The position numbers and the translations under genes were made by a program. Below the pieces are notes generated by a model that saw only the letters and a program-made list of their open reading frames with translations, was not told the DNA's origin and ran no database searches. Below are positions 44,750 through 59,612 of a stretch of DNA of 64,000 nt, piece after piece (position 1 is the stretch's first letter; each line of letters starts with the position of its first letter). The stretch lies in contig NZ_CP106951.1 of the NCBI RefSeq assembly GCF_030419005.1, positions 62,001-126,000 on the forward strand, given 5' to 3'. The stretch comes from Eleftheria terrae. Its GTDB lineage: Bacteria; Pseudomonadota; Gammaproteobacteria; Burkholderiales; Burkholderiaceae_C.

Positions 44750-44878
44750 ATGTCCGGCGCCTTGTCCTTGCATCCCTCGAAGTCCAGCCCGTGGAGGCTC
44801 AGCGTCGCCCCGATGATGGATTGGACTTCGTGCCCAGCGTTTATGCGGTGTGGCGCTGCTGCTGTAGCAATCGCGTAG
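44750..44878 (+). pseudogene. dusA: dusA 5' fragment, interrupted by the prophage
   Basis: The ATG at 44750 opens a frame whose residues 15-26 read WRLSVAPMMDWT, the unmistakable start of tRNA-dihydrouridine synthase A (flavin-binding VAPMMDWTD motif). After the codon for Thr at 44825-44827 the frame continues only 16 more codons of unrelated sequence to a TAG at 44876-44878. The rest of dusA should lie beyond the far end of the prophage. The native promoter stays with this fragment. Confidence 0.9.
44804..44827 (+). other. Prophage left attachment site (attL) in dusA
   Basis: The dusA-derived sequence stops matching DusA after position 44827. The conserved segment GTCGCCCCGATGATGGATTG (start 44804) encodes VAPMMDW, and this part of dusA is a known integration target of a dusA-specific integrase family. 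The exact core cannot be set without attR, which lies outside the window. Confidence 0.75.
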
Positions 44879-45089
44879 CGTCCTCGCGCTGTTCGTCGAT
44901 GTGCTTTGCCAGGTCCGAGACGTGGGCCGCCCACTTCGTCCCCAGCTTGAACACAGGGATCGGGAAGGTCTTCGCATAGATCTTGTTCTCGGCGGTGCGC
45001 TCGGTGATGCCCAGCAGATCGGCTACCTGCTTGAGGCTCATCACAGGGTTGCCGTCGTTCGTCATCAGCAATGCCAGTTCGGTTTTCAT
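44841..45089 (-). CDS. Small helix-turn-helix protein at the prophage left end (excisionase- or PrtN-like)
   Basis: An 82-aa DNA-binding-type protein: VMSLKQVADLLGITERTAEN is a helix-turn-helix of the kind found in excisionases, and the C-terminal part PIPVFKLGTKWAAHVSDLAKHIDEQRE also resembles the pyocin activator PrtN family. Position next to attL favours an excisionase or directionality factor. The ATG at 45089 is used; a TTG 24 bases upstream is in frame. Its 3' end overlaps the dusA fragment frame. No integrase lies beside it. Confidence 0.65.
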   Translation of the reverse strand: MKTELALLMTNDGNPVMSLKQVADLLGITERTAENKIYAKTFPIPVFKLGTKWAAHVSDLAKHIDEQREDATRLLQQQRHTA

Positions 45090-45271
45090 AGCGGTACGTC
45101 TTCGTCGTCCCAAATGGTGTCGGTGCTCTCGCCGAAGTCGCCGCGATGGCGGTGCTGCGGCGGTTCTTCATCAGGTGGCGCATTCCCCTGGTCAGGTTGA
45201 CAGGGGTGGCCGGTCATGAATGTATGTTTGCGGCTGCTAACATGAGCGCCGCCAATAAACAGGGAGGTTTC

Positions 45272-45703
45272 ATGGCTGACTTTTCGAAGTTCTACGAGTA
45301 CTTCCGCGAGAACATGGCCGCGCTCGGGCTGCCGGCTCCGCAGGAGCTCTACGGCAATCTGACGCTGGCGCTTGGCAGCGTGACGGCTCTGGAGCTGTTC
45401 ATCGAGAAATACGGGACCAAGGTGACCGTGCGCGAGCTGCTGGGCGCTGGCCTGCGAGCGGAGAAGCTGGCGACCGTTGGAGCGATGCAGGCGGCCGGCT
45501 ACCTCGGCGCGGTGATCGGCAGCATTGCGGTGGCCACTGGCCGCTGCCTCGGCAACGGGGTCACAATCGGCGAGGTGTTGTTCTCCGCAACGAAGCACGG
45601 CATCAACAGCCCTTGGCTCGCGGCGCACTTGGCTCGGTACCCGGCCATTTACGACGCCCGGGTGCCGGCTCGGCAGCTCTACCGATACCAGGCGATGGCA
45701 TGA
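45272..45703 (+). CDS. Hypothetical protein with a Gly/Ala-rich membrane segment (prophage cargo)
   Basis: A 143-aa protein I do not recognise. Residues 1-60 look soluble (KFYEYFRENMAALGLPAPQE, VTALELFIEKYGTKVTVREL). Residues about 70-100 (TVGAMQAAGYLGAVIGSIAVATG) could be one or two membrane-spanning or membrane-inserting helices, and the C-terminus is again soluble (INSPWLAAHLARYPAIYD). AGGGAGG sits five bases before the ATG at 45272. It is transcribed against the flanking prophage genes and overlaps the next gene by four bases (ATGA), which suggests a two-gene cargo unit with its own promoter. Confidence 0.65.
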   Translation: MADFSKFYEYFRENMAALGLPAPQELYGNLTLALGSVTALELFIEKYGTKVTVRELLGAGLRAEKLATVGAMQAAGYLGAVIGSIAVATGRCLGNGVTIGEVLFSATKHGINSPWLAAHLARYPAIYDARVPARQLYRYQAMA

Positions 45704-45927
45704 AAGATTCACTGCTGCTCCTTGCAACGGGCCTGGCTGGCGCCGTGATGGCGTGGGCCTTCTTCCACTACCTGGGCGTGTACGCCGCGCTGGTGCTGCA
45801 GGTGGTCGTGTTTGCTGTCCTGATCATGGACAACCGAGACATGCGGCGGAAGCTGCGCGAGCACAACATCCCGCACCGGTGGGACGGCAAGACCCACCCG
45901 CCCAGGGAGCAGCAGGCCGGCCGATGA
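45700..45927 (+). CDS. Small two-helix membrane protein, prophage cargo
   Basis: A 75-aa protein with two predicted membrane helices (LLLLATGLAGAVMAWAFFHYL and ALVLQVVVFAVLIM) and a basic C-terminus (RDMRRKLREHNIPHRW). Its start codon overlaps the stop of the upstream gene (ATGA at 45700-45703), so both are translated together. A holin-like, superinfection-exclusion or anti-phage membrane effector role is possible but cannot be decided. Confidence 0.65.
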   Translation: MKDSLLLLATGLAGAVMAWAFFHYLGVYAALVLQVVVFAVLIMDNRDMRRKLREHNIPHRWDGKTHPPREQQAGR

Positions 45928-46013
45928 GCTGATGAGGTGCCAGGGGATTCGGTCGTCCTCCACCTCTCCGGCCGCCCAGGGCCGGGCGGACTCCCTGGCA
46001 CGTGCGCGCCGGC

Positions 46014-46967
46014 TCATGGTGTTCCCCTCATGGCGTGCTCGGTCCGCCGGATGGCGTTGCCGATGGCTTCGGTGATCTGGGGGAGGACGGCGTCGCCGTA
46101 GGCGGCAATGCAGCTGCGAGCCAGCCGGGGGGGTACCCCATAAGCCACTCGCAGATGCCCAGCAGGGCCGCCGTTGAACCTAATTCGTCGCGGGCCGGTC
46201 GCTCGTTCGAGGGCAGCGCAGTGCCGAGCAACTTCCTCGTCCGATGCGCTGCTTCCCCGCTGATCTTCGTGGGGGTCAAGAGCAGGTGCACCTGCTCGTT
46301 CAAGGGCCTGGAGTTGCGTGCCAGGGTCGCGTCGCTCGCCTTCCCAGAGCGCCAATCCCTCTTGGTCGGGGTGGCAAGCATGGCCCGCATCTGCGTGACC
46401 AAGTTCTGCTTGGGCTTCCCGTTCCCTCTGCGGACGCCGAGGCTTCCCTTCGTCCCGTCCGATTTGATCGGCGTGCACAGCAACGAACCAGACCCGTTGG
46501 CGGAGATGCGGTGCTCCGGCATGGACAGCACCCACCATGAGTGGCCAGCAGGCGTAGCCTTCCGCCGCCAGTGCATCGAGCACCCAGTCAGCGCCTCGAG
46601 TTCGGATACCAGGGACATTCTCAGCAGCGACCCAACGAGGACGGACCTCTCCGACGATTCGGACGAAGTCTCGGAAGAGGCCGGTGCGCTCGCCATCGAT
46701 GCCGCGGCCCTTGTGGTTGGCGGTGCTGGCGTCCTGGCACGGGGGGCTTCCGCAGATGACGTCGGGCAGATACCCAAGGTCTCCAAGAAGTCGAGCTGCT
46801 GTGACGGTTCGAACATCGTCGTACATCCTGACGCCCGGGTTGTTGTGGGCGAAAGCGCCGCGCCGCGCCGGGTCGATCTCGCAGGCGGCCACTGTGGTGA
46901 AGCCGGCCCGGTGCAGCCCGAGGGACCAACCCCCGGCCGCCCCGCAGAAGAGATCGAGCACCTTCAT
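46014..46967 (-). CDS. Prophage C5 DNA cytosine methyltransferase
   Basis: A 317-aa methyltransferase that moves the methyl group of AdoMet to C5 of cytosine. Motif I is VLDLFCGAAGGWSLGL, motif IV with the catalytic Cys is CGSPPCQD, motif VI is ENVPG, motif VIII is APHLRQRVWFVA, and motif X is AAYGDAVLPQITEAIG. The region between (about residues 165-265) should recognise the target sequence. A second long open frame fills most of this gene. It is the last gene of the leftward early operon; no restriction enzyme is near, so it probably protects phage DNA. Its start overlaps the previous stop by four bases. Confidence 0.88.
   Translation of the reverse strand: MKVLDLFCGAAGGWSLGLHRAGFTTVAACEIDPARRGAFAHNNPGVRMYDDVRTVTAARLLGDLGYLPDVICGSPPCQDASTANHKGRGIDGERTGLFRDFVRIVGEVRPRWVAAENVPGIRTRGADWVLDALAAEGYACWPLMVGAVHAGAPHLRQRVWFVAVHADQIGRDEGKPRRPQREREAQAELGHADAGHACHPDQEGLALWEGERRDPGTQLQALERAGAPALDPHEDQRGSSASDEEVARHCAALERATGPRRIRFNGGPAGHLRVAYGVPPRLARSCIAAYGDAVLPQITEAIGNAIRRTEHAMRGTP
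46028..46816 (-). CDS. Overlapping frame inside the methyltransferase gene, conserved-looking
   Basis: A 262-codon open frame lies wholly within the methyltransferase gene in another minus-strand frame, from an ATG at 46816. It is not random in appearance: it contains SMHWRRKATPAGHSWWVLSM, two LLCTP/LATP/LLLTP-type elements (ATPTKRDWRSGKASDATLAR) and ICEWLMGYPPGWLAA, a pattern I know from phage proteins encoded near or within cytosine methyltransferase genes. EWLMGYPPGW resembles the MGYP motif before the terminal GNSV motif in canonical C5 methyltransferases. Whether it is translated separately, joined by frameshift at a C7 run, or a non-coding shadow is not decided. Confidence 0.4.
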   Translation of the reverse strand: MFEPSQQLDFLETLGICPTSSAEAPRARTPAPPTTRAAASMASAPASSETSSESSERSVLVGSLLRMSLVSELEALTGCSMHWRRKATPAGHSWWVLSMPEHRISANGSGSLLCTPIKSDGTKGSLGVRRGNGKPKQNLVTQMRAMLATPTKRDWRSGKASDATLARNSRPLNEQVHLLLTPTKISGEAAHRTRKLLGTALPSNERPARDELGSTAALLGICEWLMGYPPGWLAAALPPTATPSSPRSPKPSATPSGGPSTP

Positions 46968-47509
46968 GTACGCTGCTCCTCTTCTTGGCCCTGCGCCTCC
47001 GGTGCGGCAGGTGCTGCGGCGCTGGCGCCGTGTGCCCGCTCGATGGCAGCCTTGAGGGCCTTCGGATCGGTGCCCTTGGCCGGCGTCACGATCACGTAGC
47101 CGCCTTCGATCCATGCGCCCTTGATTGGCGTCGGTTCGGCCGGCACTTGCGCCGCGGGAGTGTGGGGGCGGTCTGCTGGGCCAGGAGCGATAGACAGCAG
47201 GTAGCGCAGCCCGATCAGGACATCGTGGGCGCTCATTCGGTGATCCGCCACCGCCGCCTCCATGCTCTTGCACGTCTGCTTCCACTCCTTCTGCCACCGC
47301 TCCCACGTGGGAAGCCCAGGGGTCCCATAGAAGCGGGCAGCGGCCACCGGCTCCATCTGCTGCGGGCCGGCCGCGAGGGTGCGGATAGTAGAGGCGGCAG
47401 CCCTGGACCTGCGCCGCGTTTCTGTTGCCATTGCCCCGTGGAGCCTGTCGGCCCATAGGTCTAGCTCATCCGCCAGCCGCAGCGCCTCTTTGATTTGGTC
47501 TTGGTTCAC
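46964..47509 (-). CDS. Hypothetical prophage protein upstream of the methyltransferase
   Basis: A 181-aa soluble protein without a domain I recognise. The N-terminus is helical (EALRLADELDLWADRLHG), the middle part GLPTWERWQKEWKQTCKSME is rich in Trp, and the C-terminus is Ala/Glu-rich (ASAAAPAAPEAQGQEEEQR). The GTG at 47509 has AAGGAG five bases upstream, and both ends overlap neighbouring genes by four bases, so it is part of the coupled early operon. Confidence 0.7.
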   Translation of the reverse strand: MNQDQIKEALRLADELDLWADRLHGAMATETRRRSRAAASTIRTLAAGPQQMEPVAAARFYGTPGLPTWERWQKEWKQTCKSMEAAVADHRMSAHDVLIGLRYLLSIAPGPADRPHTPAAQVPAEPTPIKGAWIEGGYVIVTPAKGTDPKALKAAIERAHGASAAAPAAPEAQGQEEEQRT

Positions 47510-47865
47510 GGCTGCTCCTTCAGGGCGGCGTCGATGGCCTCGTCGAGCGTTTCGTGTCGCAGCCACGACGTAGGCATGCCGAACCGCGGATCGTTATCGC
47601 GCAGGTAGGAGTAGCGGATGGCGTACTGGCGCACCAGGTCCAGCGACAGCGCGCGGTTGCATCCGCAGCAGTCAGCGCCGCAAGCGGGAGAAGCGCACAA
47701 CGCCGGGGCCGGAGTCGCCGTCTCCAGCTGCTGCACGCGCTCCCGCAGCGCCGCGGCCTCACGGTGGGCCTGCTCGTTCTCGTGCTCCAGGCGGGCGATC
47801 TCATCGGCCGCCGCGCGCATGGCCAGGACGGACGGGGCGCCCATCAGCCGTTCCTTGATGTTCAT
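47506..47865 (-). CDS. Hypothetical prophage protein with a coiled coil
   Basis: A 119-aa protein. Residues 15-50 form a charged coiled coil (AADEIARLEHENEQAHREAA), followed by a Cys-rich stretch (CASPACGADCCGCN, possible metal site) and the C-terminal segment YSYLRDNDPRFGMPTSWLRH, which I have seen in other phage proteins of siphovirus early operons. Function unknown. Its last bases overlap the next gene's start (GTGA). Confidence 0.7.
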   Translation of the reverse strand: MNIKERLMGAPSVLAMRAAADEIARLEHENEQAHREAAALRERVQQLETATPAPALCASPACGADCCGCNRALSLDLVRQYAIRYSYLRDNDPRFGMPTSWLRHETLDEAIDAALKEQP

Positions 47866-47907
47866 GGTGTTCTCCGTGCGGAGGCCGGCGCTGGCCGGCC
47901 CGTTGGG

Positions 47908-48555
47908 TCAGCTGCCGTGCGTCTCGGCGAAGATGTCTGTGGCGTCCTTGGGCGCCGGCTCCATCTCTTCGCCGTCGTCCTCGTCGTCGTCGCCGCCGCG
48001 GTACCAGTCGCTGTCGCGGCTGCCGTCGATCAGCTCGGGTGCGGCCTTGGGCGGGGTGAGGGTGATCCGCACCTCATCGCCGATGAGCGTCGCCAGGTCG
48101 CCGATGGTCGGGCCCGACAGCTTCGACGCCTGGGCGCGGAAGTGCACCTCCACCGTGCCGCCCTCCAGCAGGTGGAGGCGGAACTGGTTGACGGAGCAGC
48201 CATCAAGCTCGATGTTCGAGTCGCCGCCGAGGCCGCGGTCGACGGTCAGCGCATAGCCGACGTACTCGTTGGACAGCTTCAGCGGCTGGTCGATCAGGCT
48301 GCAACGCAGCAGCGGCTTGTGCGAGATCGGCGCGACGCATTCCAAGGTGGTCTGCGTGTCCGGCTGCCGCGGCTCGGGCGCCGTGTAGAACATGTCCAGC
48401 AGCGCGCCGTGAAACTCCGACAGCACGGTGTTGGGCGCCACCCACTTGAAGGCGATGTCAGCCGCGGGCACATGCTCGTCGCCGTGCATCTCGCTGCGGA
48501 CGTTCACGTTCTTCACGTGCACGGCGGTCATGGATTCGAGAGAGAACTGGGCCAT
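47908..48555 (-). CDS. Hypothetical prophage protein next to recT
   Basis: A 215-aa soluble protein of unknown function. It looks beta-strand-rich (AVHVKNVNVRSEMHGDEHVP, VEVHFRAQASKLSG) with an acidic tail (GGDDDEDDGEEMEP). Such proteins commonly lie beside RecT/exonuclease pairs in prophages, so a role in phage recombination or DNA handling is possible. It starts 26 bases after the recT stop. Confidence 0.7.
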   Translation of the reverse strand: MAQFSLESMTAVHVKNVNVRSEMHGDEHVPAADIAFKWVAPNTVLSEFHGALLDMFYTAPEPRQPDTQTTLECVAPISHKPLLRCSLIDQPLKLSNEYVGYALTVDRGLGGDSNIELDGCSVNQFRLHLLEGGTVEVHFRAQASKLSGPTIGDLATLIGDEVRITLTPPKAAPELIDGSRDSDWYRGGDDDEDDGEEMEPAPKDATDIFAETHGS

Positions 48556-48580
48556 GGTGGTCCTTGGTGGTGGGCGGGGG

Positions 48581-49603
48581 TTACTTAGACAGCTCGGCTT
48601 CGCGGGCCTTGAAGACCTTCACCAGGTCGTCGAACTGGTCGGGGGGGAGGGAGTCGCGGGCCTCGTCCAGGGCCAGGCCGGCGGTTTCGACGCTGGTGGC
48701 CTTGCTGATTGCGTCAGCGGCTTGGGCGTAGGTGACGGCCGGCGCGGCTGGCGGCAGCGTGGGGGCCGGTGCCTGCTCATCGTCCTCCGCCACGAACCGG
48801 AAGTCGCCGTCGATCACAGCGCTGTTCTGCTGGCTCACGCCAGCGTCGGCCAGTTCGTCGAGGCCTACAGCACGCTGGATTTCGATGGACACCGGCAGAT
48901 ACTTGAACAGCCGACGGATGGCGGTCTTCTTGGCCATCTCGTCGAAGTGCTTCATCCAAGGGTTGTCCTGCTTCTTGTACTGGACAGCGGTCCTGTATCC
49001 CTGGCTTTCGTTGCGCACGCGCTCGATGTCATGGCGCGTCATCACTTCAAACTGCACGCCACCGTCCTTCAGCTTGGCCACAGCGTAGACGTGCGTGAAC
49101 TCGCCGCGCTCACCCTCGGCGGGAACATGCTCGATGGTCTCGTTGATGCCGAAGCGGTAGCTGAACGTGTCGTTCGCGTACACCGAGCGGGCGGTGAGGC
49201 TGACAATCTGCCCGCTGCGCCGGGCGAGGTCGATCATCCCGCGGTAGCCGATGATCAGCTGACACTCCGTGCCGACTACCTGCCATTGGTCGCCGACCTT
49301 CTTGCGCTTGTCGAACGGCAGTAGGTAGGCATGTCCGAGCGAGTTGCCGGGCTCCAAGCCGAGTTGGGCGCACTGGATGACTGCGCCGAGGAAGGACATC
49401 GGATCGCACTCGCCGAGCTTCGGCACCTTGCGCATTTCCGTGGTCGCAATGCGGGCCATCCGCTCCGCCGTCATGTGGCGGGGGAGGGCGGCCTTGATCT
49501 GGCTCTGCACGCCTGGGCTGGCGAGCAGGTGGGCGAGGTCCTTCGGCTTCTCCGCCACGGCGGTCTTGCCAGTGGCGGCGGCTTTCAGGGCGGTGGTCGA
49601 CAT
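48581..49603 (-). CDS. recT: RecT family single-strand annealing protein
   Basis: A 340-aa RecT homologue. It anneals complementary single-stranded DNA during phage recombination and replication. The signature is DPMSFLGAVIQCAQLGLEPG, followed by ECQLIIGYRGMIDLARRSG and NPWMKHFDEMAKKTAIRRLFKYLP, all typical of RecT. The C-terminal ~80 residues are a variable acidic part that may contact SSB. It is paired with the YqaJ-type exonuclease immediately upstream, the usual two-component phage recombination system. Confidence 0.94.
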   Translation of the reverse strand: MSTTALKAAATGKTAVAEKPKDLAHLLASPGVQSQIKAALPRHMTAERMARIATTEMRKVPKLGECDPMSFLGAVIQCAQLGLEPGNSLGHAYLLPFDKRKKVGDQWQVVGTECQLIIGYRGMIDLARRSGQIVSLTARSVYANDTFSYRFGINETIEHVPAEGERGEFTHVYAVAKLKDGGVQFEVMTRHDIERVRNESQGYRTAVQYKKQDNPWMKHFDEMAKKTAIRRLFKYLPVSIEIQRAVGLDELADAGVSQQNSAVIDGDFRFVAEDDEQAPAPTLPPAAPAVTYAQAADAISKATSVETAGLALDEARDSLPPDQFDDLVKVFKAREAELSK

Positions 49604-49632
49604 GCAGGTCTCTCCTGTGGTGGTGGAATGGG

Positions 49633-50535
49633 TCAGCGGAGCCGGAACACGCGGCTCTCGGTGGTCTTGATGAACTGCTCGAAGAGGTCGGGGTGGGCGG
49701 CCTGGAATGCGCGCTGGTCGAAGCGGCGGGCCGTCTGCGTCTTCCAGGTAATGACGTCGCGCCCGTTGACGGTGAGGCGTGCCGCGCCGCCCATGGCGCG
49801 CTGCAGCGCTTCCTTGCAGCCGTCGATGCGGGCCTTCAGCTGGCCGGCCTCCGCCTCCAGCGCGCGCAGTTCGTTCAGCGCGACGAGAGCGGCGGTGTCC
49901 GCCTCGATGGCGCTGCCGGCGTCACGCGGGAAGAGGCGCTCGATGTCGCTGGCGTCAGTGGCGGGAGGCGGCACCATTGCCTCGACGTGCTCGCGCCAGA
50001 AGGCGACCTCGCGGGCCCGCAGCGCTGCGATGGTCTCGTCGTCGCGTTCGACCCGGTAAACCCGGAAGTCATCGCCGCCGATGAGCACGCCGAAGACGCA
50101 GGAGGCGCGGCCGGTGATCATCAGGCCGTGCATTGCCTGGGCGGTGTAGTGCACGGGGATCGCGTCGGTGCCGATCTCGCCCCACTCGGCCGCCTTGAAC
50201 GGGCTGACGGTCTTGATCTCGATGTTCACGGGGCCGTCGTCTTCGAAGGCCTCCGCATCGATCTCGCACGCCAGAAACGGGTACTCGCGGTCCACGTAGC
50301 GGTTATTGCGGCCCACGATGCGCAGCCGCTTTTCCTCGGCCAGCAGGTCGCACACATAGGGCTCCATCCGCTTGCCGCGGTTCAGCACCCGCATGCGATC
50401 CGGGTCGGCGTTCTCCGGCATGGCCGGCATCACCTTGTCCTGCCACAGCTGCAGGGGCGTCTTCCAGGGGCTCAGGCCCAGCACGGCAGCCGCGTCGCTG
50501 CCGCCCAGGAACTTGGTTCGATCGTTGGTTTGCAT
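49633..50535 (-). CDS. YqaJ-like phage exonuclease
   Basis: A 300-aa nuclease of the YqaJ/lambda exonuclease superfamily. It resects double-stranded DNA for RecT. Motifs: GGSDAAAVLGLSPWKTPLQLW near the N-terminus, RGKRMEPYVCDLLAEE, the metal-binding DAEAFEDDGPVNIEIKTV (E-x-K), and YTAQAMHGLMITG with the conserved Gln. A coiled region (LRALEAEAGQLKARIDG) follows. The ATG at 50535 has a GGAGAAG Shine-Dalgarno; it begins two bases after the stop codon of a 49-aa gene. Confidence 0.93.
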   Translation of the reverse strand: MQTNDRTKFLGGSDAAAVLGLSPWKTPLQLWQDKVMPAMPENADPDRMRVLNRGKRMEPYVCDLLAEEKRLRIVGRNNRYVDREYPFLACEIDAEAFEDDGPVNIEIKTVSPFKAAEWGEIGTDAIPVHYTAQAMHGLMITGRASCVFGVLIGGDDFRVYRVERDDETIAALRAREVAFWREHVEAMVPPPATDASDIERLFPRDAGSAIEADTAALVALNELRALEAEAGQLKARIDGCKEALQRAMGGAARLTVNGRDVITWKTQTARRFDQRAFQAAHPDLFEQFIKTTESRVFRLR

Positions 50536-50536
50536 G

Positions 50537-50686
50537 TCACTTCTCCAGGCGGTGCTTGGTGTCGGCGATGAAGATGAGGTAGCCCAGGACGGTGGAGGCC
50601 GGCGCAAACAGGAACTCGCGCTCCCGCATGTCGGCCTCGGCCCAGCGCAGGCGAAGCCGAAGCCACGCGCGCGCCAGGCACCGCAT
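50537..50686 (-). CDS. 49-aa early gene upstream of the exonuclease
   Basis: A very short frame supported by context: GGAG six bases before the ATG, start overlapping the previous stop (TGATG) and stop one base before the exonuclease start. The product has a basic N-terminus (RCLARAWLRLRLRWAEADMR) and one hydrophobic stretch (FLFAPASTVLGYLIFIA) that could insert in the membrane. Function unknown. Confidence 0.6.
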   Translation of the reverse strand: MRCLARAWLRLRLRWAEADMREREFLFAPASTVLGYLIFIADTKHRLEK

Positions 50687-50838
50687 CAGGCGCTCCAGGT
50701 GAAAAAGAGGGCCACCAGCGGCGCGGCTACGATCAGCAGCACCACCACGATCAGGGCCGCGGCGAGCGCAGAGACGGTGCGGAGCACGCGGTCCTCGATG
50801 GTCTCGGCGTCCGCGCCTTCGAAGGGGTCGGGGCTCAC
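50686..50838 (-). CDS. 50-aa single-pass membrane protein, early operon
   Basis: A short frame from a GTG at 50838 that overlaps the previous stop (GTGA) and ends in TGATG with the next gene. The product has an acidic cytoplasmic half (DPFEGADAETIEDRVL) and a strong helix (ALAAALIVVVLLIVAAPLVALFF). Not predicted by simple length cut-offs; the coupling and the clear membrane helix argue it is real. Confidence 0.65.
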   Translation of the reverse strand: MSPDPFEGADAETIEDRVLRTVSALAAALIVVVLLIVAAPLVALFFTWSA

Positions 50839-51158
50839 AGCTCGATTCCCTTCGCCTTGGCGATCAGGCGCTGATAGGGGCGGGTGGCCACGTCGATGGC
50901 TTCCTCGCCCATCTCGCAGGCCCGCAGGAAGCTGGTGAAGTGCTGGAGCATGTCTTCCAGGCCTTGCAGCATCTCAGGGGCGGCGGCGATCAGGCGGGCG
51001 TTGTCTGCGTCGGGCCCATTGCCTTCCGTCGGGTAGTAACGCTCGCAGTCGCCGAAATCCATAATGACCCGGCCATTCGCACCCTTCAGCATCGGCATCT
51101 GCGTGCCCTGCTGCTCGACCCAGTGCCACGGTCCCGGAGTGTGTTTCGTGGTGCTCAT
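50835..51158 (-). CDS. Hypothetical prophage protein of the KHTPGPW type
   Basis: A 107-aa phage protein with the widespread N-terminal signature KHTPGPWHW and the segment DADNARLIAAAPEMLQGLEDML, found in many unrelated tailed phages near recombination and replication genes. Function unknown. Its start overlaps the previous stop (TGATG) and its end overlaps the next start. Confidence 0.8.
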   Translation of the reverse strand: MSTTKHTPGPWHWVEQQGTQMPMLKGANGRVIMDFGDCERYYPTEGNGPDADNARLIAAAPEMLQGLEDMLQHFTSFLRACEMGEEAIDVATRPYQRLIAKAKGIEL

Positions 51159-51325
51159 CAGACTTCCCTCGCGGAGAGGTAGAACTCGTAATCGACGTCG
51201 TGGTCATCGCTGGGCCGCTCGACCGCGATCTCGCCGCAGCCGCGGCACCGCCAGCACACCTGGCCCTCGTGCCGGCCTTCACCCGAGCCGCCGCAGGTCG
51301 GGCAGTACTCGGTGTCGGTGCTCAT
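51158..51325 (-). CDS. 55-aa zinc-finger-like protein
   Basis: A short frame between two coupled genes (ATGA at its start, TGATG at its end). It has four CxxC-type cysteines (YCPTCGGSGEG, VCWRCRGCGE) arranged as in the DnaJ-type zinc ribbon, then an acidic tail. Possibly a small DNA- or protein-binding accessory factor of the recombination operon. Confidence 0.65.
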   Translation of the reverse strand: MSTDTEYCPTCGGSGEGRHEGQVCWRCRGCGEIAVERPSDDHDVDYEFYLSAREV

Positions 51326-51648
51326 TGCAGGGCGCGGGCGATGTCGCCAGCGTTCTCGATCGCGTAGCGGTCAGCCATGGCCATGCGCAGCGCCAAGACC
51401 GTGGGGCACGGAGACTCGCGCAGCACGGTGAGCAGCAGCGCGGCGATCTCGTGGTGATCGAGGACGTCCAGCACGATCTCCGGGAACGCCTGCTGATAGA
51501 TCCACCCCGTCGACTCCGACACCCGGGGCAGCTTTAGCCGGCCATCGCTGGCGGCGGCCAGGAGGAACAGGGCTTTCAGCCGCAGCTTCTCGGGCGCAGT
51601 GGCGTCCACGGCATGCGACACGACGGGGAAGTTCAGAACGGCAGCCAT
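51322..51648 (-). CDS. Hypothetical prophage protein
   Basis: A 108-aa helical soluble protein I do not recognise (KLRLKALFLLAAASDGRLKL, SESTGWIYQQAFPEIVLD, HHEIAALLLTVLRE). AAGGAG lies six bases before the ATG at 51648; a GTG three bases upstream is a weaker alternative. It overlaps both neighbours. Confidence 0.65.
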   Translation of the reverse strand: MAAVLNFPVVSHAVDATAPEKLRLKALFLLAAASDGRLKLPRVSESTGWIYQQAFPEIVLDVLDHHEIAALLLTVLRESPCPTVLALRMAMADRYAIENAGDIARALQ

Positions 51649-52061
51649 CACAGGCTCCTTTCGATGCTGAGGTGCACGACGTGCGTGCTGCGCTTGTTGG
51701 GGCGGGCGCCGTAGCTGATGCGCACCCGGGTGTCACCGCCGAAGGCAACGCTGGGCAGCACGATGGGCCGCAGGGCCTGGCCGGTCTCTTGTCGGTAGCC
51801 GGTGGCCACAGCCGCGGTGAGGTCCAGGCGCACCCAGTCGCCGCGGTACAAGTTCCAGCTGTAGCCGCCGTACACGGTGGGCCGGCGGTAGCTGTTGCGG
51901 TACACGCCCGCCGTCCAGCCGTCGTGCAGGACGTACACGCCCGGGTTGACGTTGTTCAGGTCGCGGGCCGGGTAGTGCTGGCTGCCCAGGTGCAGGCCGA
52001 TGGTGGTGTCAGCCTGGGCGGCGCCGGCCAGCAGGGCGAAGAGGAGGGCGGCTGCTCGCAT
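51648..52061 (-). CDS. Secreted prophage protein, possibly a small outer-membrane barrel
   Basis: A 137-aa protein with a signal peptide (MRAAALLFALLAGAAQA) in an operon of otherwise cytoplasmic early phage genes. The mature part is strand-rich with many Tyr/Trp/Gly (LNNVNPGVYVLHDGWTAGVY, PTVYGGYSWNLYRGDWVRL, VAFGGDTRVRISYGARPN), consistent with a small beta-barrel; I have seen related proteins in other phage early regions. It might alter the host envelope. Start overlaps the previous region by TGAG-ATG spacing and the end overlaps the next gene. Confidence 0.7.
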   Translation of the reverse strand: MRAAALLFALLAGAAQADTTIGLHLGSQHYPARDLNNVNPGVYVLHDGWTAGVYRNSYRRPTVYGGYSWNLYRGDWVRLDLTAAVATGYRQETGQALRPIVLPSVAFGGDTRVRISYGARPNKRSTHVVHLSIERSL

Positions 52062-52062
52062 C

Positions 52063-52263
52063 TCAGTACCCCAGCACGTCGCGCAGCTCTTGCAGCGAGC
52101 GCACGGAGTCGAGAACCACGGCCACCCGGCCATCGGGATGGGCCTCGGTGGAGCGCACCACCACAGCACCTGCTGCGGCGTCGAATTCGGCCCGCGGCTG
52201 CGGCGTGCCGTCGTCGTGGCTGTTGGCGAACCGGATCAGCCGGTCGGCGGTGATGCTGTCCAT
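52063..52263 (-). CDS. First gene of the leftward early operon, hypothetical
   Basis: A 66-aa protein (SITADRLIRFANSHDDGTPQ, VAVVLDSVRSLQELRDVLGY) of unknown function. GGAGAGACAG precedes the ATG at 52263. It is the first gene after the predicted leftward promoter and so may be a very early regulator. Confidence 0.65.
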   Translation of the reverse strand: MDSITADRLIRFANSHDDGTPQPRAEFDAAAGAVVVRSTEAHPDGRVAVVLDSVRSLQELRDVLGY

Positions 52264-52296
52264 CTGTCTCTCCACGCGGTGTGTTGCGATGGAGAA

Positions 52297-52325
52297 ACTT
52301 TATGCGGATGCGCCTAGCAAAGCAA
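52297..52325 (-). promoter_or_regulatory. Leftward early promoter (PL-like)
   Basis: On the minus strand TTGCTT (52325-52320) and TAAAGT (52302-52297) are separated by exactly 17 bases, with operator L1 filling the spacer. Transcription would start near 52290, giving a ~27-base leader with a Shine-Dalgarno site. Confidence 0.55.
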
Positions 52326-52340
52326 GGCGTATGCGCCTAA
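52301..52340. promoter_or_regulatory. Left operator pair (L1, L2)
   Basis: Two 17-bp related sequences: TATGCGGATGCGCCTAG (52301-52317) and AAGGCGTATGCGCCTAA (52324-52340), with starts 23 bp apart. L2 is an almost perfect palindrome (AGGCG-N4-CGCCT). The same sequence and the same 23-bp spacing occur at 53278-53317. Confidence 0.8.
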
Positions 52341-52378
52341 CAGAGGCCGCCGGAGATAGACACTTTGGGAATATCGTT

Positions 52379-52395
52379 AAGGCTTATATGCCTAG
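52379..52395. promoter_or_regulatory. Third left operator-like site (L3)
   Basis: AAGGCTTATATGCCTAG keeps the GGC...GCCTA halves and centre spacing of the operator set. It overlaps the 3' end of the small membrane gene. Confidence 0.5.
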
Positions 52396-52649
52396 ACTTT
52401 GAATATTCGGCGGAAGAACGCCGCCACGGCCCGGGCTGCGCTCCGAACGTCGTCCGGATACCGCCACGCCCCGAGGGTCACTCCCCACACCAGCGCCAGA
52501 ACAAGATAGCCCAGGAATTTGGCTGTCCGCTGAGGGACCTCCATGGCGTCGAGTAGCCAGAAGAAGGACAACGCAGCGAGGAACCCTGCGAACCCAACGC
52601 CAGCGGCGAGGAGGAATCGCTTATCGCGCTCGGTGATCTTTAGTCCCAT
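52392..52649 (-). CDS. Two-helix membrane protein behind the repressor
   Basis: An 85-aa protein with two helices (FLLAAGVGFAGFLAALSFFWLL and FLGYLVLALVWGVTLGA) and a basic C-terminus (RAVAAFFRRIFKV). It starts 11 bases after the repressor stop on the same strand, so it is expressed in the lysogen. That position and size are typical of superinfection-exclusion or lysogenic-conversion proteins; the function is inferred from context only. Confidence 0.65.
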   Translation of the reverse strand: MGLKITERDKRFLLAAGVGFAGFLAALSFFWLLDAMEVPQRTAKFLGYLVLALVWGVTLGAWRYPDDVRSAARAVAAFFRRIFKV

Positions 52650-52660
52650 GGTGAGGTCCT

Positions 52661-53242
52661 CTACCTGTTGCCTGGCTTGCGCGCCTTTGGCCCGGGCGCT
52701 GGAGCGTCTGGACCAAGCTTCAAGGCGCGGGGTGCCGGCTTGATGGGATCCAGAGCCCCCCAATCGGAGCGGGTCCAGTCTGGGGAGGGGGGCGGACCAG
52801 GGAGGTGTGCAGCCGCCTTGTCTGGGGAGACATACCCGGTCACCCCGAAGCGCTCGCGCAGGATCTTGTCCACGTGTTGCCGTGACTGCTCAGCCTGAGC
52901 CATGACCGCCTGCAGCACCTCGCGTTGGGTCGCCTCCGGGATATCGCGGAAGGCAAGGATCAAATCCCGTTCGGTAGAGGTCAGGCGCACCTCAGGGACC
53001 CGACTCGCGCCGAGGTTGGGTTGTAGTAGATCGATCACCGGGATACCGGTAACTTGGCTAATGCGCTCCACCATGCCAATGGTCGGATCGAGTTGGCCTC
53101 TGATGATGCGATTCACGGTCGTTTGTGTCAGGCCGTGTTCGTTTGCCCAGGCGTTCACCGACTTCTGCGCCTTGTCGATCAGGGCTCGAAGGTTCTGGCC
53201 GATGACGGTCGGCTGTGGCGAATTCTGGGCGTCGTTAGGCAT
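52661..53242 (-). CDS. Prophage repressor (CI-like, without peptidase domain)
   Basis: A 193-aa helix-turn-helix repressor. The HTH (about residues 12-70) reads VIGQNLRALIDKAQKSVNAW, then ANEHGLTQTTVNRIIRGQLD and ISQVTGIPVIDLL. Residues 85-130 are helical (STERDLILAFRDIPEATQRE) and the C-terminus is Pro-rich and basic (PAPGPKARKPGN). There is no LexA/S24 peptidase motif, so RecA-driven self-cleavage is unlikely. It lies between the two operator regions, as expected for the main repressor. Start at the ATG at 53242; no strong Shine-Dalgarno sequence. Confidence 0.85.
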   Translation of the reverse strand: MPNDAQNSPQPTVIGQNLRALIDKAQKSVNAWANEHGLTQTTVNRIIRGQLDPTIGMVERISQVTGIPVIDLLQPNLGASRVPEVRLTSTERDLILAFRDIPEATQREVLQAVMAQAEQSRQHVDKILRERFGVTGYVSPDKAAAHLPGPPPSPDWTRSDWGALDPIKPAPRALKLGPDAPAPGPKARKPGNR

Positions 53243-53277
53243 GTCCGCCCAATGATGCCGCAGCCCGGGCTCGCTTC

Positions 53278-53317
53278 TATGCGGATGCGCCTTGACGATT
53301 AATGCGGATACGCCTAA
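53278..53317. promoter_or_regulatory. Right operator pair (R1, R2)
   Basis: TATGCGGATGCGCCTTG (53278-53294) and AATGCGGATACGCCTAA (53301-53317), with starts 23 bp apart, match the left operators. R2 fills the -35/-10 spacer of the rightward promoter and R1 touches its -35 box, so repressor bound here would block cro transcription. Confidence 0.85.
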
Positions 53318-53320
53318 TCT
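53292..53320 (+). promoter_or_regulatory. Rightward early promoter (PR-like)
   Basis: TTGACG (53292-53297) and TAATCT (53315-53320) are 17 bases apart. The expected start of transcription, 7-8 bases on, is at the A of the cro ATG at 53328. Confidence 0.7.
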
Positions 53321-53327
53321 ACGCGCC

Positions 53328-53555
53328 ATGACGCTCGACCAACTGATCAGCAGGCTGCAGGCCATGAAGGGCTCCGGCGGCTGGCGACGCCTGGCGAAGC
53401 AAAGCGGGGTGGACTACTTCACGGTCGCCCGCATTGCCCGTCGGGAGATCGCCAACCCCGGCATGCGCACGTGCGAACGCCTCATGGCGGCCCTGCCGCC
53501 CGAGGTCGCTCCCAGTGACCCACAAGCAGGTGGCGAAGTGGAGGAGGGCGTGTAG
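53328..53555 (+). CDS. Cro-like repressor
   Basis: A 75-aa protein with a helix-turn-helix (WRRLAKQSGVDYFTVARIAR) and the position of Cro: first gene to the right of the operators and divergent from the repressor. No Shine-Dalgarno sequence is seen and the promoter places +1 at or next to the ATG, so the mRNA may be leaderless. An upstream in-frame ATT/other start would run into the operator. Confidence 0.75.
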   Translation: MTLDQLISRLQAMKGSGGWRRLAKQSGVDYFTVARIARREIANPGMRTCERLMAALPPEVAPSDPQAGGEVEEGV

Positions 53556-53771
53556 CCCCCATTGGCCATGCGCGCTCACCGCGACCACCTCCTGCAGCGG
53601 CGTGCCGCGTCGATGAGGTCGTTCGCTTCCGCGCTGAAAGCCGCTGCTGCACCGGCAGCGCAACGCATCAGGAGCTGCCGCACGGCGGCTCTGGCCCAGA
53701 GGTGGATTTGCAGTTCGTCCATGGCTGGGCAGTTTTCCGTGCATCCAACTGGTAACCCAAGAGGTAATCAC

Positions 53772-54137
53772 ATGAGTTTTCTCTATGCAGGCCACCCCAT
53801 GCCCATGGGCAAGGAGGTGATTCGGAGGCAACGCCTCAGCGTCTCGCCGGCCGTCGTGCGCCAGCTGCTGACCTACCGCGACGCATGCCGCCTCGCGTGG
53901 GAGAAGCGGGCCATCCCCGGGCTGACGCAGCGCACCGTGGCCGAGCTGGCAGGCCTGCACCCGCCCCACGTGTCCGACTACTTCTCGCCCGATCCCTCGC
54001 GCCGTGAGCTGCCGGCGCGCGCCATCGGCGACGTGGAGCGTGTGCTCGGCAACACCGTCATCAGCCAGTGGGTCGCCAAGCAGGCCCGGCTGACGGTGCT
54101 GGAAGAGCTGCAAGCGCTGGAAGGCGAGGCGGCGTGA
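53772..54137 (+). CDS. Phage early regulator (CII-like position)
   Basis: A 121-aa protein with a DNA-binding look: GLTQRTVAELAGLHPPHVSDYF is a helix-turn-helix, followed by AIGDVERVLGNTVISQWVAKQ. The position, second gene after cro, suggests a CII-type activator or an early regulator, but the sequence is not clearly CII. AAGAGG precedes the ATG at 53772. 216 bases separate it from cro; a small antisense frame there is not convincing. Confidence 0.65.
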   Translation: MSFLYAGHPMPMGKEVIRRQRLSVSPAVVRQLLTYRDACRLAWEKRAIPGLTQRTVAELAGLHPPHVSDYFSPDPSRRELPARAIGDVERVLGNTVISQWVAKQARLTVLEELQALEGEAA

Positions 54138-54334
54138 AGGTCTCCACTGCTCCGGTCTATGCGCGCGTGGCGTGCGAGGGGAAGCAGCGCTTCTCCTCGG
54201 CCGTGCTCGCGCACCAGGTCGCCCGGCAGGGGAACCGCCGGGCCGACCGCAGCTATCGGGCGTACCGCTGCGTCTACTGCCACGGGTGGCACCTGGGCGG
54301 TGGCGTGTTCAAGACGTCCGCGAAAGGAAAGTGA
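54134..54334 (+). CDS. Small Cys/His protein
   Basis: A 66-aa protein from a GTG that overlaps the previous stop (GTGA). YRCVYCHGWHLGGGVFKT may bind zinc through its CxxCH and His; the rest is basic (QGNRRADRSYRAYR). Small proteins like this are common in phage early regions; function unknown. Confidence 0.65.
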   Translation: MKVSTAPVYARVACEGKQRFSSAVLAHQVARQGNRRADRSYRAYRCVYCHGWHLGGGVFKTSAKGK

Positions 54335-54335
54335 A

Positions 54336-54896
54336 GTGAGCCACGCACCCGGCACATATCTGGGAGGCATTCGCACCGTCGAGTGCCTTCGGCAACGCAG
54401 CCATGTCGATCCCGACACCGCCTGCTGGCACTGGCGCCTGTCCATCAGTCAGGGCTCGCCGGCCATACATCTTCTGGACCCCGAGAGCGGCAAGCCGTTC
54501 CGGGCCCGTGGGCGCGCTGCCGCTTGGATGCTCTCGCACGGGCTGCGGCTGCCCAAGGGCTGGGTGTGTTGGGGCATCTGCAAGCACGACGACTGCGTGA
54601 ACCCGGCGCACTCGCGTGCAGGAACCCGCGCGGCGTGGGGCGCATGGATCGCCAAGACTGGGATGGGCAAGAACCGCCCCGCAAAGGTCGCGGCGAATCG
54701 TCGCATCGTGCGTGAGAAGTTGGCCAAGCTCACGCCAGAGCAAGTGCTGGAGATCCGTCGCAGCAGCATGACCCACGTCGCGCTGTCGAAGATCTACGGT
54801 GTATCGCCAAGCCGCATCGGCTACATCAAGCGCGGTGAGGCCTGGGCCGACGTCGTGACGAATGCGACGGTCTTCACCTGGCGAGGCGCCGCATGA
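54336..54896 (+). CDS. HNH-endonuclease-like protein with a C-terminal helix-turn-helix
   Basis: A 186-aa protein. Residues 25-100 resemble a zinc-stabilised HNH nuclease module (CWHWRLSI, WVCWGICKHDDCVNPAHSRAGT); the Cys residues and the CVNPAH turn are typical of phage HNH homing-type proteins. The last 50 residues (LTPEQVLEIRRSSMTHVALS, IYGVSPSRIGYIKRG) are a helix-turn-helix, as in free-standing HNH endonucleases. AAAGGA is upstream of the GTG at 54336. It may be a selfish or regulatory gene; activity is not certain since the central His residues differ from the consensus. Confidence 0.7.
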   Translation: MSHAPGTYLGGIRTVECLRQRSHVDPDTACWHWRLSISQGSPAIHLLDPESGKPFRARGRAAAWMLSHGLRLPKGWVCWGICKHDDCVNPAHSRAGTRAAWGAWIAKTGMGKNRPAKVAANRRIVREKLAKLTPEQVLEIRRSSMTHVALSKIYGVSPSRIGYIKRGEAWADVVTNATVFTWRGAA

Positions 54897-55864
54897 AGCG
54901 CCCCGCCTTCCAGTTCTACCCAGCCGACTGGCGCAAAGACGTCGAGCTGCGCTCGTGCTCTGTCGCTGCACGCGGCTTGTGGATCGACCTCATGTGCGTC
55001 GCGCACGACTGCGAGCCCTATGGGCACCTGATCCTCAACGGCAGGCCCATGACTCCTGCGCAGATGGCGGGCCAAGTCGGCAACATCTCGCCCGCCCAGC
55101 TCAAGAAGCTGCTCGACGAACTGATCGAGAACGGTGTGGCTCGCGTGACCCCTGAAGGGGCGATTTACAGCAAGCGCATGGTGGACGACGAGCGCGTCAG
55201 GAACGCACGGGCTGAGGGCGGGAAGGCGGGGGGTGAGCACGGTTCCAAGGGGGGATCTCACGGCAACAAAGGGGGGCGTCCTAAGTCTCCGAAGGGGGGT
55301 TCTGAAACCCCCCTCGAAACCCCCCTTGAGCCCGAGTTAAAACCCCCCCCTTCTTCTTCATCTTCATCTTCTACTTCCTCGCTTCGCTCGGAAGCCGCGG
55401 GCGCGAAGCCGGAACCCCCCTCCGCAGCACCGGACCCGCAGCCCTCTGCCGCCGGCCTGGCCTGCCGAGCCATGCGGCAAGCCGGCCTCACCGACGTATC
55501 GCCGTCCGACCCGAGGCTGCTCGCCCTGCTGGCCCAGGGCATCGCGGTCGACGAGTTCGCCGCCGTCGCCGCTGAGGCCAAGGCGAAGGGCAAGGGCTGG
55601 AGCTGGGTGCTCGCCGTCGTCAAGGGCCGCCGTGCCGACGCAGCGCAGATCGCCGCCACCACGACCGCCGCAGCACCAGCCCCGGCCGCAGACCCCAACG
55701 CCTGGCAGCAGACCCGCTCCGGCGTCATCCATCGCGCCAACCAGCTCGGCATCGGGCCGTGGAACGAGGTCGACGCCCACGTCGGCGTCGGCCCCAGCTG
55801 GGGCGCCTACAAGCGCCAGGTCATCGAGGCCGACGCGCAGCAACGCCAAGGAGGCTCCGCATGA
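54893..55864 (+). CDS. O-like replication initiation protein
   Basis: A 323-aa protein with the architecture of phage replication proteins. The N-terminal domain (about 1-105, AFQFYPADWRKDVELRSCSV, then LKKLLDELIENGVARVTPEG) is the winged-helix/DUF1376-like type. A disordered low-complexity linker (about 110-185) is coded by homopolymer-rich DNA (GGSHGNKGGRPKSPKGG, PSSSSSSSTSSL). The C-terminal part (SPSDPRLLALLAQGIAVDEF, AKGKGWSWVLAVVKGRR) would bind the helicase loader. It overlaps both neighbouring genes by four bases. Confidence 0.75.
   Translation: MKRPAFQFYPADWRKDVELRSCSVAARGLWIDLMCVAHDCEPYGHLILNGRPMTPAQMAGQVGNISPAQLKKLLDELIENGVARVTPEGAIYSKRMVDDERVRNARAEGGKAGGEHGSKGGSHGNKGGRPKSPKGGSETPLETPLEPELKPPPSSSSSSSTSSLRSEAAGAKPEPPSAAPDPQPSAAGLACRAMRQAGLTDVSPSDPRLLALLAQGIAVDEFAAVAAEAKAKGKGWSWVLAVVKGRRADAAQIAATTTAAAPAPAADPNAWQQTRSGVIHRANQLGIGPWNEVDAHVGVGPSWGAYKRQVIEADAQQRQGGSA
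55271..55379. other. Homopolymer- and repeat-rich segment in the replication gene, candidate origin
   Basis: Within 80 bp lie runs of G6 (55271-55276, 55294-55299), C6 (55308-55313, 55320-55325) and C8 (55343-55350). AGGGGGGTT and AACCCCCCT (55293-55301, 55306-55314) form a 9-bp hairpin with a 4-nt loop, and the second arm is repeated at 55318-55326. A pure pyrimidine-type run (TTCTTCTTCATCTTCATCTT) follows from 55351. Lambda keeps its origin in the same place, inside gene O. Confidence 0.5.
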
Positions 55865-56376
55865 GCACGTTCGAATCGCGGCGCGACCAGCGCATCGCCG
55901 ACGAAGTGGCCGACGACAGGACGCTGATGTGCGCCGCACACGGCTGCCCCAATCGCTGGTCCGTCGACGCCGGCAACGGCCGCCTCTGCAGCGCCCACGC
56001 TTGGGCCGACACCCGCGACTGGCAGGCCATCACCCACGCCCAGCGCAACGCCCAGACCGACCGCGCCATGGCCGCGCAGCGCCCAGCACCAGCGCGTCCG
56101 ATGGTCAGCAAGCGCGAAGCGATCCAGCGCCTGCGCAGCCTCGACTTCGGCCGCAGCAAGGGCAAGAGCTGGGCCGAGCGTCTGCGCGATCGCGAGCTGG
56201 CCGGCGAACGCCTCACCGACGCCCAGAAGCGCATGTGGCGGTCTGCCCTGCGCGCCGACCTGCCGAGCATGCCGTTTGAGCGCATGCCCGAGCCCGAGGA
56301 CACCGCGCGCGCGCCCGCGCATTTCGCCCGGGACGAGGCCGACGAGGACCTGCCCTACGCCTTCGAGGAGGCCTGA
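55861..56376 (+). CDS. Hypothetical phage protein with Cys-rich start
   Basis: A 171-aa protein. The N-terminal MCAAHGCPNRWSVDAGNGRL and CSAHAWADTRDW hold possible zinc ligands, as in small phage proteins near replication genes; the rest is helical and basic (REAIQRLRSLDFGRSKGKSW, ERLRDRELAGERLTDAQKRM). It may assist replication. Start overlaps the previous stop (ATGA). Confidence 0.7.
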   Translation: MSTFESRRDQRIADEVADDRTLMCAAHGCPNRWSVDAGNGRLCSAHAWADTRDWQAITHAQRNAQTDRAMAAQRPAPARPMVSKREAIQRLRSLDFGRSKGKSWAERLRDRELAGERLTDAQKRMWRSALRADLPSMPFERMPEPEDTARAPAHFARDEADEDLPYAFEEA

Positions 56377-56378
56377 CC

Positions 56379-56498
56379 GTGCTGCCCTACCGAGACCCCC
56401 GAACCATCGCCGACCGCGGCGCCGTGCGCGCCGTGCTGGTCTTCCTGGCCCTGGTCTGGGCCGCCGTCATCTGCATTGCCGAGGAGCTGCTTTCGTGA
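56379..56498 (+). CDS. 39-aa single-pass membrane protein
   Basis: A short GTG-start frame (56379) with GAGGAGG seven bases upstream. The product is basic at the N-terminus (YRDPRTIADRGAVR) and has one helix (AVLVFLALVWAAVICIA). It overlaps the next gene by four bases (GTGA). Context and the strong Shine-Dalgarno site support it. Confidence 0.65.
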   Translation: MLPYRDPRTIADRGAVRAVLVFLALVWAAVICIAEELLS

Positions 56499-56674
56499 AC
56501 GTCGTCCCCATCACACCCACCACGCCTGCGTGCTTCGGCGTCATGTGCCAGCGGCACGCCGAGTGCGCGCGGTACCACCTCATCGACAACGCTCCGCACG
56601 ACCAACTGCGCATTGCGTCGTGCGAGCAGGGGCCGGAGCGGCCGCTGTTCGTGCCGCGGGAAGGAGGCCAGTGA
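56495..56674 (+). CDS. Small Cys-rich phage protein
   Basis: A 59-aa protein from a GTG overlapping the previous stop. CFGVMCQRHAECARYHLID and a later Cys (RIASCEQG) suggest a metal site. Similar small Cys proteins are common in phage early operons. GAGGAG is upstream of the start. Confidence 0.65.
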   Translation: MNVVPITPTTPACFGVMCQRHAECARYHLIDNAPHDQLRIASCEQGPERPLFVPREGGQ

Positions 56675-56985
56675 TGGCGACGGAAGAACAGGTCAAGCAG
56701 TGGGCCGCCCAGGTGGGAGCCGAGACCGGATGGCAGAGCACCCAGTCGCGCAGCGACCCTGAACTCGCGGATGACGACTTCGTGCTGAGCGCGGATCAGC
56801 TGCGCCGCTTCGCCGAACTGGCCCAGGAGGCAGAGCGGGGGGCTGAGCTAGTGATACGAGCAACCGAGGGCCCGGTGTGCATCAAGGAGCTGGAAATCTC
56901 GCTGGGCGCCCGGGTAGTGGTCGAGCCAGGCGAGTTTCCAGTGCTGATTTGGAGTGTGAGCCGCGCCCGAGGAGAGAAGCAATGA
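56674..56985 (+). CDS. Hypothetical phage protein
   Basis: A 103-aa soluble protein without a recognised domain (EEQVKQWAAQVGAETGWQST, LSADQLRRFAELAQEAERGA). AAGGAGG precedes the ATG, which shares its A with the previous stop (TGATG). It ends overlapping the next gene by four bases. Confidence 0.7.
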   Translation: MATEEQVKQWAAQVGAETGWQSTQSRSDPELADDDFVLSADQLRRFAELAQEAERGAELVIRATEGPVCIKELEISLGARVVVEPGEFPVLIWSVSRARGEKQ

Positions 56986-57251
56986 AGTACCGCAAGAAGC
57001 CTGTCGTGATCGACGCATGGCGCATCGACTACGACGCAGAGCGGCCAGACTGGGTGCAGGCCGCATTCGTGGCCGATGAAATCGACTGGGACTACGGCGG
57101 CGATTGTTTGTGGATCGACACGCCAGAGGGCACTGTGATGGGTGGCATGGGTGACATGCTGATCCGCGGGGTAAAGGGCGAGCTGTACCCCTGCCGGGCC
57201 GACATCTTCCTGCTCAGCTACGAAGCTGTGGTGGAAGGCGGTGCGGCATGA
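56982..57251 (+). CDS. Hypothetical phage protein (YRKKPVVIDA type)
   Basis: An 89-aa phage protein of a widespread family starting KYRKKPVVIDAWRI and containing GDMLIRGVKGELYPCRADIF. Members occur in many tailed phages near replication genes; function unknown. ATGA overlap with the previous gene. Confidence 0.8.
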   Translation: MKYRKKPVVIDAWRIDYDAERPDWVQAAFVADEIDWDYGGDCLWIDTPEGTVMGGMGDMLIRGVKGELYPCRADIFLLSYEAVVEGGAA

Positions 57252-57454
57252 GCGACATCAAGCTGCCGAAGGGCGAGCCTGTGCTTTGCGGGTACACCGC
57301 CGAGCAGGTCGCGGAGCTGTGCTGCGAGTACGGCCGGCAGTGCGCCGAGGCTGCGCGGCGGGAGGAGCGTGAGGCCGCATGGCTCAAGGGCTATGAGGCA
57401 GGGCAGAAGGACGCAAAGCGGGGTTTCGACGTCCGCACAAGGGGCAAGGCATGA
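57248..57454 (+). CDS. Hypothetical phage protein
   Basis: A 68-aa helical protein (AEQVAELCCEYGRQCAEAAR, EEREAAWLKGYEAGQKDAKR) of unknown function, overlapping both neighbours. Confidence 0.7.
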   Translation: MSDIKLPKGEPVLCGYTAEQVAELCCEYGRQCAEAARREEREAAWLKGYEAGQKDAKRGFDVRTRGKA

Positions 57455-57597
57455 ACTGGATCGTGATAGCTGGCCTCGGCGTGGCCGGCCTTCTCTGCGC
57501 CATCTGGATCGCTGCGCTGGTCGTCAGCGCGATCCGTCTGGATCAGATCATGCGCGCGGCATGCCCGGCGCGGCAGACGAAGGAGGGCAGGGCATGA
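57451..57597 (+). CDS. 48-aa single-pass membrane protein
   Basis: A short frame that starts in the previous stop (ATGA at 57451-57454) and overlaps the next start. One helix (WIVIAGLGVAGLLCAIWIAALVV) and a basic tail. The fit between two coupled genes supports it although it is very short. Confidence 0.65.
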   Translation: MNWIVIAGLGVAGLLCAIWIAALVVSAIRLDQIMRAACPARQTKEGRA

Positions 57598-57854
57598 GCG
57601 AGAAAGACAACGGCGGGCCGGCGTTCCCTGGCCTGAATCCGGCGATGACCGGAATCGACAGCGACGGATTCGAGCGGTGGGAGACCGAGCCGTCCGGCGG
57701 CATGTCCCTGCGCGACTACTTCGCGGCGAAGGCGATGGCTTCCGTCATTGCGATCGCCAAGTATCCGTGGGTCCGCGGTGATGTGGACCTGGAATCCGTG
57801 GCAAAGGCTGCCTACCTGGCCGCCGACGCCATGCTGAAAGCGAGGGATCAATGA
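57594..57854 (+). CDS. Hypothetical phage protein (GGPAFP type)
   Basis: An 86-aa protein of a common phage family with the signature NGGPAFPG and SLRDYFAAKAMASVI. Function unknown. Overlaps both neighbours by four bases. Confidence 0.8.
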   Translation: MSEKDNGGPAFPGLNPAMTGIDSDGFERWETEPSGGMSLRDYFAAKAMASVIAIAKYPWVRGDVDLESVAKAAYLAADAMLKARDQ

Positions 57855-58312: not shown

Positions 58313-58554
58313 CCGAGCGCAACCGAGTGGACGAAGCCCGGGCCGAGCTGTTCCGCATCCGCGAGCACCTGCGGCAGCTCAAGGCCGAAGAGCGTGAGTC
58401 GGTCCAGGCCAAGGCCCGCTTCCTGCGCGGCTGCGTGGGGCAGGCGGCGCAAGGGCCCGGCGGCCAGCGGCTGGCCTACGTGGCCATGCTGCTGGTTTGC
58501 GCCGAGATCGGGCTTGAGGTGATGGAAGCACGCGAGGGGAAGGCCACCGGATGA
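58309..58554 (+). CDS. Hypothetical phage protein
   Basis: An 81-aa helical protein (RAELFRIREHLRQLKAEERE, LAYVAMLLVCAEIGLEVME) of unknown function in the overlapping gene chain after rusA. Confidence 0.65.
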   Translation: MTERNRVDEARAELFRIREHLRQLKAEERESVQAKARFLRGCVGQAAQGPGGQRLAYVAMLLVCAEIGLEVMEAREGKATG

Positions 58555-59611: not shown

Positions 59612-59612
59612 G

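Follow-up and report, generated by a model that had tools for sequence, protein, structure and literature searches.

A prophage within the dusA gene of Eleftheria terrae and the replacement start codon at its right junction

The dusA gene of Eleftheria terrae is split by a prophage whose DNA replaces the 5' end of the gene while preserving the reading frame. With high confidence, this arrangement can be explained by integration of a temperate, podovirus-like phage, which would use a dusA-associated tyrosine integrase to enter the conserved APMMD codons of dusA. According to this model, attP carries a short imitation of the dusA 5' end, complete with an ATG belonging to the phage, and integration would fuse the phage leader in frame to host DusA, leaving the native start and upstream region stranded at attL. 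An RdfN-like protein encoded at attL would then probably direct excision and restore the native gene. Both junctions, the open frames, the integrase, the RdfN-like gene and the open frame of the empty site can be read from the sequence itself. By analogy with related elements, phage DNA may also provide the promoter, the new DusA is presumably functional in this strain, and the prophage is probably still able to excise.

Two junctions in one dusA gene

The window, the whole 64,000-nucleotide stretch analysed here, corresponds to G000:C2:62001-126000. Its frame from the ATG at 44750 reads MSGALSLHPSKSSPWRLSVAPMMDWT, then departs from DusA and stops after 42 codons. The earlier note had read this frame as the beginning of DusA followed by unrelated sequence, and translation confirms it, with the rest of dusA lying about 40 kb to the right on the same contig. 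On the forward strand, the host remnant (44750..44820) begins at the probable native start codon and takes in the att core. The attL core, GCCCCGATGATGGA, occupies 44807..44820, and an identical set of 14 bases forms the attR core at L009:3933-3946 (G000:C2:146933-146946), 40,126 bp away on the same contig and in the same dusA codons. Between window positions 44650-45000 and the 10 kb around the right-hand dusA on the same strand, this 14-mer is the longest exact match, the next being 12 bases. The semi-conserved att repeats of the dusA 5' end are present at both ends of the element, sharing this exact core.

Outside the core, the two junctions differ, as attL and attR should. The attR copy that had been predicted to lie right of 64 kb is present, exact over the core and identical at 20 of the 24 bases of the motif at 44804-44827. 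When a 22-base version of this motif was searched across the whole genome with up to 3 mismatches, the left copy alone was found, the right copy deviating at 4 bases. The earlier note had also fixed the left prophage end to within a few bases; the junction holds, with the small correction that host DNA ends at 44820 at the latest. After the core, attL continues with the 'WT' of DusA. Since the crossover must lie within or next to the core, the 'WT' closing the left fragment is phage DNA, and the mimicry of dusA extends there as well.

At the right junction, an ATG at L009:3843, 55 bases beyond the integrase start codon, opens a 352-aa DusA frame (L009:3843-4901) that matches NF008774 DusA with 549 bits against a cut-off of 269, over residues 18-341 of 352. 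This is the sole in-frame ATG, GTG or TTG ahead of the core. Phage DNA supplies the ATG and 29 further codons, encoding the first 30 residues (MSGQTCYGTATQPGASLEKSSAGNPWRLSI); the core is shared, and the remainder is host DusA. About 300 remaining dusA codons had been expected at this end, and roughly 317 host codons are found there. The earlier note had left two possibilities for the distal dusA, a start from phage DNA or silence, and a phage ATG does stand in frame. The phage-encoded leader is 11 codons longer than the presumed native leader. In the closest relative (L040), an ATG lies 15 codons before the motif, a place at which no start codon is present here.

A genome-wide search for Dus-family proteins identified four places, of which C2:4545864 and C2:146930 are strong and full-length, while the other two are partial and just above the cut-off. 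Using DusA as the query recovered DusA itself, C2:4545864 (29% identity) and the remnant at 44750 (E 7.7e-4). An intact, separate dusA elsewhere, with neither a dusA remainder nor an attR copy to the right, had been named as the finding that would count against an insertion; neither search revealed a second DusA in the genome, and the single one lies about 40 kb right of the remnant.

When the host flanks are joined in silico, the ATG at 44750 opens a single uninterrupted DusA frame of 341 aa. This frame aligns across the junction with 27 of 29 dusA loci from relatives, L075 and L079 being the exceptions, and in 13 of the 27 the alignment includes 15 or more bases on the left side of the core. 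A motif search shows the N-terminus in 22 of the 29 relatives' dusA loci, typically as WRLSVAPM(M/L)DWTD. Since no alignment extends left of window position 44779, we infer the native start codon.

Integrase, RdfN-like protein and prophage genes

A tyrosine integrase of 334 aa (PF00589) abuts attR at L009:2783-3787 on the minus strand, where the earlier note had predicted one; a search of NCBIfam returned no match for it. Residues R203, R291, H315 and Y324 are present. Position 288, where the first His of the RHRH tetrad stands, is Tyr in this integrase and in eight close relatives (9 of 9 aligned). A simple pattern applied to 13 loci gave five matches, with Tyr in L040 and His in L096, L106, L108 and L109. 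The note rightly stated that the dusA 5' region is the target of an integrase family of its own. The available excerpts of Farrugia et al. 2015 (PMC4482086) describe such dusA-associated integrases, give their similarity to a reference member as 22.8-97.6%, and name phage H66 as a carrier. Among the best 40 of 142 matching phage records, H66 included, identity to the present integrase is 35.6-40.3%, with H66 at 35.6% and 93% query coverage. Among characterized proteins, the Rci family is described as nearest to the dusA-associated integrases; the annotation of one related phage protein reads 'shufflon-specific DNA recombinase'. The nearest relatives found are viral contigs and one Rhodoferax genome, at 66-75% identity. 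A genome scan for close integrase relatives identified two loci, one of them a short partial match, and 23 of 60 relative genomes, this one included, have some integrase match, mostly weak. In G003, from the same genus, integrase and dusA lie on separate contigs.

Across att from the integrase lies the gene for an 82-aa PrtN/RdfN-like protein (44841..45089, minus strand), which abuts attL and is a probable recombination directionality factor (excisionase). It matches PF11112 with 36.2 bits (cut-off 24.2) and PHROG 1300, 'excisionase', with an E-value of 4.7e-14, in agreement with the earlier proposal that the 82-aa gene at the left end is a candidate excisionase. With this single query sequence, similar frames turned up on the far side of att in 11 of the 22 related loci searched. 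The only NCBIfam match of the protein, to the defence protein MAD1, falls far under the cut-off (26.4 against 80 bits).

The left 19 kb of the prophage (44821..64000) contains RecE, RecT and head-tail connector families, and a further 20.9 kb of the element, up to the attR core, lies outside the window. A RecT-like annealing protein (48581..49603, minus strand; PF03837, PHROG 148) is followed by a RecE/YqaJ-like exonuclease (49633..50532, minus strand; PF09588, PHROG 434), and a head-tail connecting protein, or portal, is encoded at 59613..61253 on the plus strand (PF12236, PHROG 332). Beyond the window are genes for a large terminase subunit, a major head protein, a head protein, two tail proteins and a virion structural protein. 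The element appears to belong to a podophage-like group; a megablast of window positions 54000-64000 against phage records gave no match. A C-5 cytosine methylase is also encoded (46014-46973, minus strand), with a match covering only positions 1-181 of a 324-position model.

Adjoining the integrase, to the right of the window, is a gene whose 238-aa product bears a PEP-CTERM sorting motif (PF07589), at L009:1982-2698 on the minus strand (G000:C2:144982-145698). The host genome encodes an exosortase (PF09721) and has five other places matching the C-terminal part of this protein. A protein search found 11 sequences, namely itself and 10 aligned over only 11-34%, while phage records gave no match. 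A PEP-CTERM scan of 39 loci, many of them short, produced four matches, of which those in L040 and L049 look spurious. In one viral contig that also has a related integrase, a gene on the phage side of that integrase (L100:7876-8619, plus strand) specifies a protein ending in a PEP-CTERM-like sequence; this protein and that of the prophage are alike only in their last 60 residues. In a limited survey of literature excerpts, no phage-borne PEP-CTERM protein was evident. The prophage protein could be a surface protein that alters the lysogen.

DusA-like leaders at related loci and in known elements

Twenty-nine loci were compared, each with a related integrase and some sequence past its start. 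Besides the present locus, they comprise 18 viral contigs, a Rhodoferax genome and 9 of the 142 phage records. The comparison left out the other phage records, six loci in which the integrase sits at the very edge of the sequence (L044, L045, L047, L095, L099 and L102) and four partial matches (L048, L049, L081 and L105). A DusA-start-like frame with an in-frame start codon runs through the core in 25 of the 29, the start being ATG in 23. It runs on into DusA in four loci (this one, L080, L091 and L103), is truncated in L093 and L111, where the sequence stops, and departs from DusA in the remaining 19, as attP would. Such a frame is absent from L090, L107, L110 and L113, the att side comprising only 257 and 301 bases in the last two.

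The frame was chosen by its APMMD-like motif, which makes conservation within the motif circular and leaves only the five codons before it as evidence. Over these codons, 25 distinct sequences show 867 pairwise differences at the first codon position, 479 at the second and 1003 at the third, counted without a tree. The low count at the second position indicates selection at the amino-acid level, as a tendency rather than a test. Taken together, the 29 loci suggest that the phage-borne dusA leader is maintained as a coding sequence in phages without dusA, in line with the published opinion that a functional DusA benefits lysogens.

A restored frame might still produce little DusA if an adequate promoter or ribosome site were lacking, so that insertion would silence or weaken the gene. 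No clear ribosome site was seen ahead of the ATG at L009:3843, and a scan too crude to decide the matter found no sigma-70-like promoter on the phage side of the junction. Between integrase and core, the new dusA leader contains one weak terminator-like stem (L009:3905-3922; one found against 0.3 expected by shuffling). In the portions available of a 2021 PLoS Genetics paper (PMC8409611), a Vibrio island is described as supplying a working replacement promoter and N-terminus, with dusA expression, measured as dusA'-lacZ, reduced by integration. However, the same crude scan found no sigma-70-like promoter on the native side either, so it says little. Moreover, start and frame are kept in 25 of the 29 loci, which is hard to reconcile with non-expression of the product. 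Silencing or weakening of dusA is accordingly considered unlikely.

It is similarly doubtful that the prophage is an immobile relic. Two of the nine right-half proteins scanned have no PHROG match, some small genes lying outside that scan, but open frames remain for the integrase, the RdfN-like protein, RecET, the terminase, the connector and the head and tail proteins, and both att sites are present. Almost no credence can be given to a misassembly or chance resemblance without any insertion: the exact repeat is just 14 bases, yet the break falls at the same dusA codons in both halves, which lie within one 5.46-Mb contig, and the integrase and RdfN-like gene are placed as is typical of dusA-specific elements.

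Integration with a spare start, the preferred explanation, follows a known strategy in which a conserved gene is broken and then mended by the invader's own start, giving a low host cost of integration. The excerpts of Farrugia et al. (PMC4482086) describe dusA-associated integrases, the replaced dusA 5' end and excision; 60 of their 94 islands have a prtN homologue, and the average size is 42.6 kb. The present element resembles those dusA-specific prophages and islands in its site in the dusA 5' end, adjoining integrase, new 5' end, prtN homologue and similar size. It differs in its integrase, whose identity to those of the best 40 of 142 phage records does not exceed 40.3% and which has Tyr288 where RHRH has His.

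As far as the consulted parts of PMC8409611 describe them, IMEVchUSA3 and other dusA-specific SGI1-like elements of Vibrio share the position of RdfN (PF11112) across att from the integrase, and in IMEVchUSA3 this protein is the directionality factor. Unlike the present prophage, IMEVchUSA3 is a mobilizable island rather than a phage, and its leader is of native length, whereas the leader here is longer. Phages vB_PaeP_E220 (Pseudomonas), PS6 and AS1 (Marinobacter) and SMHB1 (Salinivibrio) also carry a DusA-like frame with its own start beside the integrase, although their integrases are only 35.6-38.1% identical. Everything central to this case has already been published in kind; its contribution is a further member, whose integrase clade has Tyr at 288.

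Repeats at the junctions as candidate arm sites

GTAGC occurs in three pairs around the core. A direct pair on the plus strand at attL (44864..44879), with copies at 44864 and 44875, 11 bases apart, lies within the 3' end of the RdfN-like gene. Another direct pair stands beside the integrase start (L009:3791 and 3803), and an inverted pair falls in codons 6-11 of the new dusA (L009:3859 and 3870). Counting either strand, CGTAGC occurs five times in 235 bp, and a hexamer that frequent appeared in none of 500 local shuffles. In L042, whose integrase is 69% identical, ATTGCC repeats stand at matching places as judged by eye, with seven copies and again no equal in 500 shuffles. In 10 of the 20 loci other than this prophage, the best hexamer was equalled in at most 5 of 500 shuffles, the hexamers differing between loci, and the other 10 are not convincing; these counts carry no correction for 21 tests.

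The repeats are likely integrase arm sites, and the recombination sites would then spell part of the new DusA N-terminus. Integrase-arm-like repeats inside a new dusA start were not described in the excerpts covered by a limited literature survey. The overlap of these candidate sites with the replacement dusA start raises the speculative idea, to which only a small probability is assigned, that integrase occupancy is coupled to dusA expression. If so, bound integrase would repress both its own promoter and dusA, and dusA output would report the state of the recombination complex.
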